NCBI RefSeq assembly: GCF_900111745.1
Contig: NZ_FOIJ01000007.1
Coordinates: forward strand, 310,001 to 374,000
DNA: 64,000 bases
Direction of reading: 5' to 3'
Source of the DNA: Stigmatella erecta
Lineage (GTDB): Bacteria > Myxococcota > Myxococcia > Myxococcales > Myxococcaceae
The notes beneath the pieces were generated by a model, which saw only the letters and a program-made list of their open reading frames with translations, made no database searches and had not been told where the DNA came from. Both the position numbers and the translations under genes were made by a program. Position 1 is the first letter of the stretch; each line of letters opens with the position of its first letter. This document shows positions 12,348 through 16,371 of this stretch, piece by piece.

Positions 12348-13613
12348 TCAACGGGTCGAAGACGACACACAGGCGTCCGCCGCGTGGAGCACGTCGAGAT
12401 CCTGGTGGAACAGCGCCGTGCTCGAGGCTTCGACGCGGCGCACCAACACCGAGCCGAACACGTCCGCGTTGCCGCTCAGGCGCAGCAACACTTGGGGCGC
12501 ATACAAATGGCCCGTGAGGGCGCTGTCCACCTCGACGGTGAGCGTGCCCGGACCGGCGATGTAGACGCGCATCCGGGGCAGCTTCGTGCCGCTGCCCAGG
12601 CGCAGCGGCCCCGTCACCGACACGTTGCCCGCGATGAAGAGATCCAACTCCGCCCCGGGCCCCTGCACGTCCACGGCGAGCTGGTCGCCCAGGCTCACCC
12701 CGCCCCCCACGAAGAGCGCCGTGCGCCCCTGGGCCACGAGCGTCAGCCCGCCCTGCCCCGAGATGCGGTTCAAGTAGAAGCGCCCGCAGGGCAGCTCCAG
12801 CCGCCGGGAGCCGGTGAAGCCGTCCAGCTCCGAGGGCTCAAGGCCGATGTCCGCGTTGTGGTTCTCCTGGGCGTGGTTGGCCACGAGCCCCGCGATGTCC
12901 AGCGGGCCGGCGGGCGCGCAGCCGCAGGGCACCGGCACCTCCACGGGCTGCCGCAGCACCTCGGCGGCCTGGATGGCGCCGGTGAGGGTATTGCCCGCGG
13001 GCACGGTGAGACGCCCACCCACCGTCAGCGAGCCCACCCCCACGTTGCCCCGCACCTGGGCGTCCTTCGCCACGGTGAAGGTGCCGTTGCCCAGCAGCGC
13101 GCCGCCGCCGTGCAGCGCGTCCCCCACGGCGAGCGAGAAGCCCATCCGGATGAGCCCCCCGGCGCGCACGGCCCCGCCCACGTCCACCACGTTGTCGGAC
13201 GTCAGGTCCCCGTTCACCCCCAGCGCCCCGGCCTTCTCCCCGGTGGTGTACGGCCCCTCGGAGCCCCGGAAGGCATCCACCCGCAGGGGCGCGCTCAGCG
13301 CCAGCGCCTCGCAGGCACACAGGGCGTGCGCGAACGCCTGCTGGGCCAACACCCCGCTGCACACGGACGGTCCGCTGCCGCCCTCTCCCACCAGCACCGG
13401 CGGCCCACTGCCCTGGCAATACGTCACCCAGTCCTCGGGAGGAGGGGGCGGCGGCGGCAGGCCTCCATCCTCGTCCTCGTCCGGGACGGAGGCGTCCTCG
13501 CCGTCGCGCACCTGCGCCACCGGATCCCTCACGGTGCAGGCGCAGACCAGGGCGCCCACCACGAGCCACGCCCTCCCCGCGCCCCACGCCCTTCGAGCGG
13601 CCGCTGTCCTCAT
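12348..13613 (-). CDS. DUF7305-type beta-helical lipoprotein
   Basis: The 421-residue product has a lipoprotein signal (LVVGALVCAC), an acidic Pro-rich linker (DEDEDGGLPPPPPPP), and a repeat-rich beta domain. Recurring Gly-Asn-Val segments are visible (GNVGVGSLTVGGRLTV, IAGNVSVTGPLRLG, YIAGPGTLTVEV, YAPQVLLRLSGNADVFGSV). This is characteristic of the DUF7305 family, probably a surface beta-helix. Several Cys pairs near the N-terminal part (CEALA, CGCAP) may form disulfides. The start ATG overlaps the upstream stop codon in ATGA, so translation is coupled to the TPR gene. It is the last of four genes including an ECF sigma factor and is likely part of the regulated surface complex or its output. 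Confidence 0.85.
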   Translation of the reverse strand: MRTAAARRAWGAGRAWLVVGALVCACTVRDPVAQVRDGEDASVPDEDEDGGLPPPPPPPEDWVTYCQGSGPPVLVGEGGSGPSVCSGVLAQQAFAHALCACEALALSAPLRVDAFRGSEGPYTTGEKAGALGVNGDLTSDNVVDVGGAVRAGGLIRMGFSLAVGDALHGGGALLGNGTFTVAKDAQVRGNVGVGSLTVGGRLTVPAGNTLTGAIQAAEVLRQPVEVPVPCGCAPAGPLDIAGLVANHAQENHNADIGLEPSELDGFTGSRRLELPCGRFYLNRISGQGGLTLVAQGRTALFVGGGVSLGDQLAVDVQGPGAELDLFIAGNVSVTGPLRLGSGTKLPRMRVYIAGPGTLTVEVDSALTGHLYAPQVLLRLSGNADVFGSVLVRRVEASSTALFHQDLDVLHAADACVSSSTR

Positions 13614-14440
13614 GATCCGGTGAGCTCCCGCAGCCGCTTGCGCGCGGCCGCCTCCAGGGGCGAGTCCGGGTGGCCCGCCAGAAACCGCTCCAGCGCCCGT
13701 GCCTCCTGCGCCCGGTCCCCCAGGGCCCGCCAGGCCTCCGCCAGGCCGTGGCTCGCCTCGTGGCTCAGCACGCCCTGGGGTTGCAGCCGCTGCGCCTCCT
13801 GGAATTGGCGCAGCGCCCCGCGCGCATCCCCCAGGTGCTCCAGCCGGAGCGAGCCGGAGGCCACGCGCGCCACGTAGGCCGCCATGCCCCCGGGGTGCGC
13901 GCGGATGACCCGCTGGTAGAGCGCCTCCGCCTCCTTCCACCGGCCCGCCACCCGGTGCGCGTTGGCCATGCGCAGCAAGTCCTCGGGCGCCAGGACCTTC
14001 GCGGGCCGGGGCTCCTTGCGTGCCGGCTCGGGCGGGGGGGCCGCTTCGAGGGCCGCCCCCCGGGCCGCGGCCGGCGCTTCACCGGGCGCGGGCTCCAGGG
14101 GGACGGGACGAGACGCCTCCGGGGGCGGGCCGGGCGCGGGGGGCACGGGGGCGTTCAGGGTGGAGGGGGGCGCGGGCGAAGGCGTGGCCACGAGGTGGCC
14201 GATGCCCGCCGCCGCCGCCGCCGTCACCAGGAGCGAGCCTCCCGCCCAGGCGGCCCGGGGCCACCGCCGGCGCACGGGCTTCGGGGGCGTGGAGGAAGGC
14301 TGAGCCGTTGTCGCATCCAGCGCCGCGCGCACCATGTCCGCCGCCTTCTGGCGGGAGATGCGCCGCGCGGGACCCGACCGGTCATCCAGCGGGGTGAGCA
14401 GCTCGAAGGGCTCCTCACCGTCCTCCTTGTACGGACTCAT
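13610..14440 (-). CDS. Membrane-anchored TPR protein, candidate anti-sigma factor
   Basis: The 276-residue protein has a charged cytoplasmic N-terminus of about 60 residues (FELLTPLDDRSGPARRISRQKAADM), one transmembrane helix (about 65-88, AGGSLLVTAAAAAGIGHLVA), a Pro/Ala/Glu-rich linker, and three to four tetratricopeptide repeats at the C-terminus (AEALYQRVIRAHPGG, ALRQFQEAQRLQPQG, EARALERFLAGHPDS). Its start overlaps the stop of the ECF sigma gene in ATGA. Small cytoplasmic domain plus one membrane helix plus a periplasmic domain is the usual layout of anti-sigma factors, so that role is inferred from position and topology. No zinc-binding HxxxCxxC motif is present. Confidence 0.85.
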   Translation of the reverse strand: MSPYKEDGEEPFELLTPLDDRSGPARRISRQKAADMVRAALDATTAQPSSTPPKPVRRRWPRAAWAGGSLLVTAAAAAGIGHLVATPSPAPPSTLNAPVPPAPGPPPEASRPVPLEPAPGEAPAAARGAALEAAPPPEPARKEPRPAKVLAPEDLLRMANAHRVAGRWKEAEALYQRVIRAHPGGMAAYVARVASGSLRLEHLGDARGALRQFQEAQRLQPQGVLSHEASHGLAEAWRALGDRAQEARALERFLAGHPDSPLEAAARKRLRELTGS

Positions 14441-15066
14441 CGAGACGATGTCTCCTCGGCTTGCTTCTTCTCCGCCATCGCCCGGAGGGCGGTGCGCCCC
14501 AGCCGCAGCCGGCTCCTCACCGTCTCGAAAGGAATTCCCAGTTCCTCGGCGATCTCCGGCACGCTCAACTCCATCACGTGGTGGAGCACCAGCGCATGGC
14601 GTTGCTCCGCCGGGATGTGGTCCAGCAGGGTGACCATGTGCCGCCGGTGGACATACTCGTCCAGGGGCGCATCCTCCGAGGGCACCGCCACCAGCTCCAC
14701 CTGCTCCGCCCCTTCCGGGTTGCGCCGCGCCCCCTCATTCCGCTCCCGCTTCAGCCCTGCGAACACCGTGCGGGCCACCACCCGGTCCGCCCAGGAGCGG
14801 AACGTGCCCTCGCCCCGGTAGGACTTCAGCCCTCGCAAGATGGCGAGCAGCGCCTCCTGGGAAAAATCCTCCGCCTCCGCATCCCCCTTCACCAGGTACC
14901 GCACCAGGTTGCGCACCCGGGGCAACAGCTCCTCCAGCAAGGCCTCGGCCGCCTCGCGGTTGCCCGCCAGGACCGCCCGGAGCTGGGGGTCCACGGCCTC
15001 CGGGCCTCCCTTTCTCGTTTTTGGGATGGAGAGCGGAGGGGGGGACTTCGGGTCAGTCGGGTTCAC
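14437..15066 (-). CDS. ECF-type RNA polymerase sigma factor
   Basis: The 209-residue protein contains sigma region 2 (NLVRYLVKGDAEAEDFSQEA, then FRSWADRVVARTVFAGLKRER) and region 4 with a helix-turn-helix (LSVPEIAEELGIPFETVRSRL). No region 1.1 or region 3 is seen, so it belongs to the extracytoplasmic-function group. The start is taken as GTG 15066 because it overlaps the stop codon of the upstream gene in GTGA, the same 4-nt coupling seen at the other two junctions of this operon. An upstream in-frame ATG at 15111 would lengthen the protein by 15 residues. It directs transcription of unknown targets, possibly including its own operon. Confidence 0.93.
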   Translation of the reverse strand: MNPTDPKSPPPLSIPKTRKGGPEAVDPQLRAVLAGNREAAEALLEELLPRVRNLVRYLVKGDAEAEDFSQEALLAILRGLKSYRGEGTFRSWADRVVARTVFAGLKRERNEGARRNPEGAEQVELVAVPSEDAPLDEYVHRRHMVTLLDHIPAEQRHALVLHHVMELSVPEIAEELGIPFETVRSRLRLGRTALRAMAEKKQAEETSSR

Positions 15067-16154
15067 GGAAAAAAGACCCCCGTCACACTGAGGCGGGGCC
15101 GCACGGCCCACCCTTCACTGTGTGTCACGAATTCCCCCGCCTCGAGGTAGCCCAAAACCGGGCGCCCCCCGAGCACCTCGGCCGCTACCGCCGCCTCCAG
15201 GGCGAAGGCGCGCGACATGCGCCAGCGCAGGGAGGACTCGGGGCCCACCGCCAGCGCGAACACCGTCCGGGACGGGGTGGCCTCCACCTCCGGGACCCGG
15301 GCCTCCGTGTCGCGGGAGAAGCTCACAACACCTACCCCGCCTCCCAATGCCCACCGCCAGCGCGGCGTGGCGGCCAGGGTGGCATCCCCCCACACCCCAC
15401 CGCCCTGCTGGCGCAGCCCCACCCGGGTGCGCCCGTCCTCGCGGGCCGCCGGGAGCCCCACGAAGAGCTGAAGCCGCACCCGCAGCCAGTCCCCCTCGTG
15501 ACCCGCGCCCAGCACCACGCCCTGGGTGCCCCCCATGCCGTACCCGTCGAGCGCGGCCTGGGCCCCCACGGCGAGCTGCCACGGACCGGAGGGCGCCACG
15601 CTCGCCACCGGCGCGGGGGGCTCCGGCACCAGGCTCACCGCGGGCAGCAGGGGCTCGGCCGGCTCGGGCGGCGGCGGGGCCACCGCGACCTCTTCTCCCA
15701 GGGGCTCGCCCACCTCCACGGCCCGGAGCGCGGAGCGCACCACCAGGGCCACGGCCTCGGCGCCGGCGGACCACTCCAGGCTGCCGGGGCGGCCCCGCAC
15801 CTGGGCCGCGCGCACGAAGAGGTGGCGGGTGCCCAGCTCGGCCAGGTGGATGTGCAGCATGACGCCGGTGCGCTGGAACCAGAGGACGGCCCGCGCCTGG
15901 TGGGCCCCGGCGAGCGCCTCCGCGCCCCGCCAGCGCGCGGGCTCGCCCAGCTCCAACGGCGGGCCTGGATCCGCCACCAGCAGCACCGGCAAGTCACTGC
16001 TCTGCCCCCGCACGCGCTCCAGGAGCAGCCGCTCTTCGTCCGAGGACACCCGCGCCACGGCCCGCCAGGGCTCCGCGGCCCCCCGCGCGGGACTCGCCAC
16101 GAGGAGGAGGGTGAGCACCTGCGCCAACCGAACCACGGTGTCCAACCACCTCAT
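15063..16154 (-). CDS. Exported protein with C-terminal beta-barrel-like region, first gene of the sigma operon
   Basis: The 363-residue product has a signal peptide (VVRLAQVLTLLLVASPARGA), a mixed alpha/beta N-terminal domain to about residue 145, an acidic Pro-rich linker (VAPPPPEPAEPLLPAV), and a C-terminal half made of alternating amphipathic strands ending in a terminal aromatic (LSVTGVFFP). That suggests a small outer-membrane barrel. The family was not recognised. The ATG at 16154 gives the best signal peptide; an ATG at 16211 has a close AAGGAG but would add about 19 residues ahead of the signal. The stop codon overlaps the sigma-factor start. It may be the sensor of the system. Confidence 0.78.
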   Translation of the reverse strand: MRWLDTVVRLAQVLTLLLVASPARGAAEPWRAVARVSSDEERLLLERVRGQSSDLPVLLVADPGPPLELGEPARWRGAEALAGAHQARAVLWFQRTGVMLHIHLAELGTRHLFVRAAQVRGRPGSLEWSAGAEAVALVVRSALRAVEVGEPLGEEVAVAPPPPEPAEPLLPAVSLVPEPPAPVASVAPSGPWQLAVGAQAALDGYGMGGTQGVVLGAGHEGDWLRVRLQLFVGLPAAREDGRTRVGLRQQGGGVWGDATLAATPRWRWALGGGVGVVSFSRDTEARVPEVEATPSRTVFALAVGPESSLRWRMSRAFALEAAVAAEVLGGRPVLGYLEAGEFVTHSEGWAVRPRLSVTGVFFP

Positions 16155-16371
16155 CCAGGTGACCCTAACGTCGCGAAGAGGGAGCGCCACGGACGGCCCC
16201 GGAGAGGGCATGTCTCCTTCAGGGCACCGGCCGTCCAGGCCCGCCAGGATAGCGCTTACCCCCCCCGAATGCCGATCGGTCCGCGCGGGGCCGCGCGTGA
16301 CATCCTGCGTCAGCCCGCGTGGGGACGAGGCGGGAGTGGCGGGCGCTCCGCCGCACGCCTGGAGGGGGGGC

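Follow-up and report, generated by a model that had tools for sequence, protein, structure and literature searches.

Four minus-strand genes at positions 16154-12348 of the analysed window, a stretch of 64,000 nucleotides from the 9.2 Mb genome of Stigmatella erecta, form a conserved cassette and not a chance row of genes, and we consider it reasonably probable that they constitute an autoregulated trans-envelope ECF sigma system, in which a TPR protein would act as the regulator and an outer-membrane barrel together with a lipoprotein would provide the input. In the order of transcription, they encode a 363-residue barrel protein (P0001; 15063..16154, minus strand) with a signal peptide and, as modelled, a TolB-N-like domain and an OmpA-like barrel, a 209-residue ECF sigma factor (P0002; 14437..15066, minus strand), whose GTG start overlaps the barrel stop, a 276-residue, single-pass TPR protein that is probably the regulator of the sigma factor (P0003; 13610..14440, minus strand), and a 421-residue DUF7305 protein (12348..13613, minus strand), a predicted beta-helix lipoprotein with its lipobox cysteine at position 26. 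An earlier note on this DNA had described the four genes as joined by GTGA, ATGA and ATGA overlaps, and all frames and coordinates match on re-checking. Within the open-licence literature we found no paper that describes this gene set and none that names DUF7305, and the trans-envelope ECF cassette is apparently undescribed.

The barrel, sigma and TPR genes occur together at about 50 myxobacterial loci, nearly all of which also carry the DUF7305 gene, which settles in the affirmative the question raised earlier of whether all four are conserved together. In profile searches, the barrel matched in 54 of the family's 96 genomes; a search of 195 genomes from across the phylum added two that belong to other families, G055 and G151, and the latter keeps both the gene set and its order. 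Sigma and TPR genes accompany every full-length barrel copy whose surroundings were read, and among these loci the DUF7305 gene is missing only at a contig end (L101) and at the distant locus in G055 (L062). The order is barrel-sigma-TPR-DUF7305, with the exception of genus g12 and of G006, where the DUF7305 gene is divergent and lies directly upstream of the barrel gene. Myxococcus and Corallococcus records contain relatives of the sigma gene, which does not often stand alone: the cases where it lacks the other three genes are confined to a sister clade and to two copies that are relocated or eroded. A record titled Comamonas sp. KCTC 72670 (L004, BNCN01000003.1) carries a typical Myxococcus-type operon, and its organism name is probably wrong.

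Overlaps of 4 nt are, taken singly, common in bacterial operons, and the row could be nothing more than an operon whose overlaps are incidental and whose genes form no functional unit; we regard this as highly improbable, as the set persists in several genera and in a second family, including loci with an inverted DUF7305 gene. The conservation of the overlaps over 50 loci, which do not equal 50 independent species and in which some contigs may repeat one genome, exceeds chance. The sigma and TPR genes are the tightest pair of the operon, as expected for a sigma factor and its regulator, with an overlap of 4 or 1 nt at 49 of the 50 loci; between the barrel and sigma genes, an overlap of 4 nt is seen at 39. 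DUF7305 is linked to the others without being strictly coupled, its junction with the TPR gene being an overlap in 33 loci, a gap in 11, a divergent arrangement in 5 and absent in one, at a contig end. The earlier proposal that strict coupling of all four genes implies fixed stoichiometry fails for the DUF7305 gene because its coupling is this loose; with the gene inverted or across a gap in 16 of the 50 loci, we dropped a fixed four-protein stoichiometry. Further downstream, 79 nt after the DUF7305 gene, lies a gene for an exported protein that is DUF4476-like (below cut-off) (P0005; 11567-12268, minus strand); it was considered as part of the core and rejected, being present in the window's genus only.

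P0002 is a plain ECF sigma factor, as had been claimed, with regions 2 and 4 only, both above the Pfam cut-off (Sigma70_r2, 1.9e-11, 44 bits, cut-off 24; Sigma70_r4_2, 3.5e-12, 46.2 bits, cut-off 25.7), and it also matches TIGR02937 (1.4e-24). The barrel protein P0001 matched no Pfam or NCBIfam family. It comprises a signal peptide, a TolB-N-like alpha/beta domain (residues ~28-150) and an OmpA-like outer-membrane barrel (~190-363) in a structure model built from five sequences at moderate confidence (pLDDT 67), in which the strand count, eight for a barrel of the OmpA kind, is not exact, and this agrees with its earlier description as exported and barrel-like. In the same moderate-confidence model, the barrel resembles NspA (Z 9.6 over 117 residues, rmsd 2.8) and OmpA (Foldseek, 7.9e-5), and the alpha/beta domain the N-terminal domain of TolB (7mx5; Z 9.0 over 108 residues, rmsd 3.2). 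Since the latter domain reaches similar Z with other folds, such as the C-terminal domain of histidyl-tRNA synthetase and PelC, its likeness to TolB-N concerns the fold only. A PDB sequence search returned nothing meaningful for the barrel and no match for DUF7305.

The fourth protein matches DUF7305 (PF23981; 5.6e-15, 56.2 bits, cut-off 27) and has a hydrophobic stretch at residues 15-33, with Cys26 of the lipobox kept in nearly all homologues and with [TSA]-V-x-D-P-V-A after it in most sequences; its signal peptide and lipobox cysteine mark it as a predicted lipoprotein. Its model (pLDDT 76, pTM 0.77) is a beta-helix, so that it corresponds in both respects to the beta-helix lipoprotein proposed before. 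The model is nearest to ComZ, ice-binding proteins and tapirins, with Z 14.0 over 243 residues (rmsd 3.7) for the pilin ComZ and Z of about 12 and about 13 for the tapirin and DUF3494 ice-binding beta-helices, respectively; unlike these, the DUF7305 protein is a lipoprotein encoded within a sigma operon, and the likeness of fold shows no function.

Judging from its sequence and those of its homologues, the TPR protein probably serves as a sigma regulator anchored in the membrane. It is laid out as a cytoplasmic segment (residues 8-45), a membrane stretch near residues 67-85, a Pro-rich linker and a TPR domain (151-262; TPR_6, 4.1e-9 in Pfam). Its one hydrophobic stretch, near residue 67, is preceded by an Arg/Lys-rich part (five K/R and no D/E) and followed by a nearly uncharged, Pro-rich stretch, and the N-terminus is therefore predicted to lie inside the cell. 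P0003 has no cysteine, hence no Hx3Cx2C class I zinc anti-sigma motif, which fits the previously suggested N-in, single-pass protein lacking that motif, and Pfam detects no FecR domain in it. The candidate sigma-binding segment (TPR codons 8-45; 14306..14419, minus strand) has a mean pairwise identity of 57% over 28 representatives, against 21% for the linker and 70% for the TPR part. A profile of this segment, run on 15 genomes, found one copy beside the sigma gene in each of the nine operon-bearing genomes and none in the six genomes that have no operon, some of which have the sister sigma only; G006 has one additional copy, beside a sigma gene whose TPR gene is eroded to that very segment. 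At the distant locus in G055, the gene that follows the sigma gene overlaps it likewise, and the protein it encodes combines an Hx3Cx2C motif with a transmembrane stretch and with FecR (E 1.3e-12), PEGA and TPR domains; a barrel homologue comes next. A role in sigma regulation is likely because the N-terminal segment tracks the sigma factor and because this zinc-motif/FecR/TPR protein occupies the same place, which gives the earlier anti-sigma suggestion indirect support; homology between the N-termini of P0003 and the G055 protein is not demonstrable by sequence, and a PDB sequence search with the TPR profile gave generic TPR matches only. We infer that P0003 binds the sigma factor, and likewise the direction of the regulation. 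In class II anti-sigma domains, as described for CnrY (PMC7406223), a short segment with two helices binds to sigma regions 4 and 2; similarly, the cytoplasmic segment of P0003 would, at about 45 residues, stay below 50, be without a zinc motif and lie before a single membrane helix. The resemblance is one of size and layout of the segment, and the periplasmic part of P0003, unlike that of CnrY-like proteins, is predicted to be a TPR domain.

The TPR part is also similar, below threshold, to models of YbgF and BamD, and the sister sigmas have no TPR-type partner at all, both of which would suit a periplasmic assembly helper for the barrel and the lipoprotein, with the sigma factor governed by expression alone, as its partnerless relatives at chitin loci may be. 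We find this unlikely, as such a helper needs no conserved cytoplasmic N-terminus, whereas the segment in P0003 tracks the sigma factor exactly, and the homologue in G055 combines a zinc motif with a FecR domain. The presence of the latter domain in a homologous protein at the same operon place points, in turn, to a FecR-like positive regulator, whose N-terminus would be needed for sigma activity and be cleaved free on signal, such that its deletion would turn the system off; P0003 itself, however, has no FecR domain, and this form of regulation appears doubtful.

Upstream of the barrel gene, Myxococcus and Corallococcus have the element GGNNCTTCC-N17/18-GNTAG[GC]NT, which ends about 7 nt short of the ATG, suggesting a leaderless transcript. 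For the window, a promoter had been expected upstream of 16154, and a candidate is found at 16162..16199 (minus strand). Its -10-like box GTTAGGGT (16169-16162) lies 7 nt before the ATG and agrees, in both motif and distance, with Myxococcus and Corallococcus. Four species of the window's genus show no variation in the block CGCTCCCTCTTCGCGACGTTAGGGTCACCTGGATG, whose 18-mer is unique in the genome at up to two mismatches. The -35-like box GGGCCGTCC (16199-16191, at 21-nt spacing from the -10-like box) is weak in the genus and does not match the strict Myxococcus/Corallococcus pattern; in g12 a -35 box is absent. A further conserved block, TCGGCATTC ... GTAAGCG-TATC-TGG, is shared by four species about 100 nt upstream of the operon (~16241-16275 of the window, minus strand).

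Combined with a start codon, the strict pattern yields two sites per genome in G110, G028 and G093, one before the operon and the other ahead of a further gene for the barrel domain only, and the reversed-pattern control gave 0 matches in nine genomes. Searched without the start codon, it returns exactly the same two sites in G110, G093, G098 and G099 and none to three sites, some of them unrelated, in other genomes. All eight second loci read (L106-L113, in Myxococcus) have the element, slightly altered in L110. Next to a barrel without the TolB-N-like part, and in the absence of sigma and TPR genes, every one of them has a gene for a small lipoprotein whose anchor motif, C[AS]VED, also occurs in DUF7305. 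These loci lie near FHA-domain and TonB-dependent-receptor-like genes. We infer that P0002-type sigma factors read these promoters; as the main alternative, the second locus may have the same promoter through joint duplication of gene and promoter. The Myxococcus promoter model gave no site in the sister-sigma chitin loci nor in the window, and the sister-sigma upstream regions, read by eye, have no clear common box.

That a barrel and a small lipoprotein stand under the same element with neither sigma nor TPR gene would also be expected if the sigma factor drove the assembly of a barrel-anchored beta-helix surface structure, with barrel and lipoprotein as mere products and the signal entering elsewhere, and the resemblance of the DUF7305 fold to the beta-helices of the pilin ComZ, ice-binding proteins and tapirins goes in the same direction. 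The operon barrel, however, has a periplasmic domain that is missing from its second-locus counterpart, its gene is coupled to the sigma gene and it is present in every operon, and we rate a role confined to output as rather unlikely.

Where the system may find its signal is hinted at by the neighbours of the sigma genes, a link to chitin that the earlier note had not noticed, any more than the shared promoter or the second barrel/lipoprotein locus. In the sigma tree, the operon clade (support 0.92) stands beside a sister clade (0.91) whose members have no barrel, TPR or DUF7305 partners, and GH18 chitinase and/or GH20 hexosaminidase genes are found at all 11 loci of the sister type (L050-L060), accompanied by a PTS transporter at most. 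The window's own genome has such a sister-type sigma (L057, G000:C2:198000-212000; 54% identical), located between a PTS EIICB and a GH20 hexosaminidase gene on one side and two GH18 chitinase genes on the other, and no partner regulator was found at this locus. Two further sigmas, L045 and L046, fall inside the operon clade, have no intact partners and lie upstream of a GH18 gene. In the former (G006:C8, 8315-9030 on the sigma strand), the sigma is 71% identical, only the N-terminal segment is left of the TPR gene after it, and the GH18 chitinase comes next; by its sequence, this is an eroded copy that retains the candidate sigma-binding part. A GH18-CBM5/12 gene precedes the operon at 15 loci in Myxococcus, with about 90-135 nt between its end and the matched barrel start. 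In the window's genus no chitinase adjoins the operon, and pattern searches of genomes and chitin loci found no chitinase with the operon promoter. The three separate contexts, namely the sister sigmas, the two relocated sigmas and the 15 Myxococcus operons, suggest chitin or GlcNAc polymers as a theme.

Among known systems, FecI-FecR-FecA likewise encodes together an ECF sigma factor, a single-pass inner-membrane regulator (probable here) and an outer-membrane barrel, and a FecR domain is found as well in the relative from G055. In contrast, neither a TonB-dependent receptor nor a FecR domain is encoded in the window's operon; it has, instead of these, a TPR domain, a beta-helix lipoprotein and a small barrel, predicted to be OmpA-like and to carry a TolB-N-like domain. 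An assignment to the Fec family was considered and dropped: P0003 has no FecR domain, and P0001, which matches no Pfam or NCBIfam family, models as a small barrel and not as a TonB-dependent receptor. A lipoprotein/small barrel pair upstream of envelope signalling is known from RcsF-OmpA (PMC4942254, PMC7553776); the analogous pairing would apply here, as far as genes and single-protein models tell, but RcsF-OmpA feeds a phosphorelay, not an ECF sigma factor, and has no sequence relation to the window proteins. The cassette is possibly a variant form of cell-surface signalling, and possibly a chitin- or surface-responsive one.

In the mechanism we favour, the TPR protein would be a single-pass inner-membrane regulator, anti-sigma or FecR-like, whose conserved cytoplasmic N-terminus would hold the sigma factor while its TPR domain would reach into the periplasm. 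There, the TolB-N-like domain of the barrel would contact the TPR domain and signal the condition of the outer membrane or the DUF7305 lipoprotein, whereupon the freed sigma factor would transcribe its own leaderless operon and, in Myxococcus, also the second barrel/lipoprotein locus. An insoluble surface may serve as the cue, or else a polysaccharide, for example chitin. It is a tentative and improbable extension of this that the system is a contact-dependent polysaccharide sensor, in which the beta-helix lipoprotein, carried on the barrel, would detect insoluble chitin or a similar surface and signal through the TPR-type regulator to its own ECF sigma factor, with no TonB receptor involved. 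The model predicts two promoters in Myxococcus xanthus. If it is true, predatory bacteria, few of whose surface cues are known, would add a barrel/lipoprotein input with a TPR-type regulator to the small number of routes by which Gram-negative cells pass surface signals to an ECF sigma factor.
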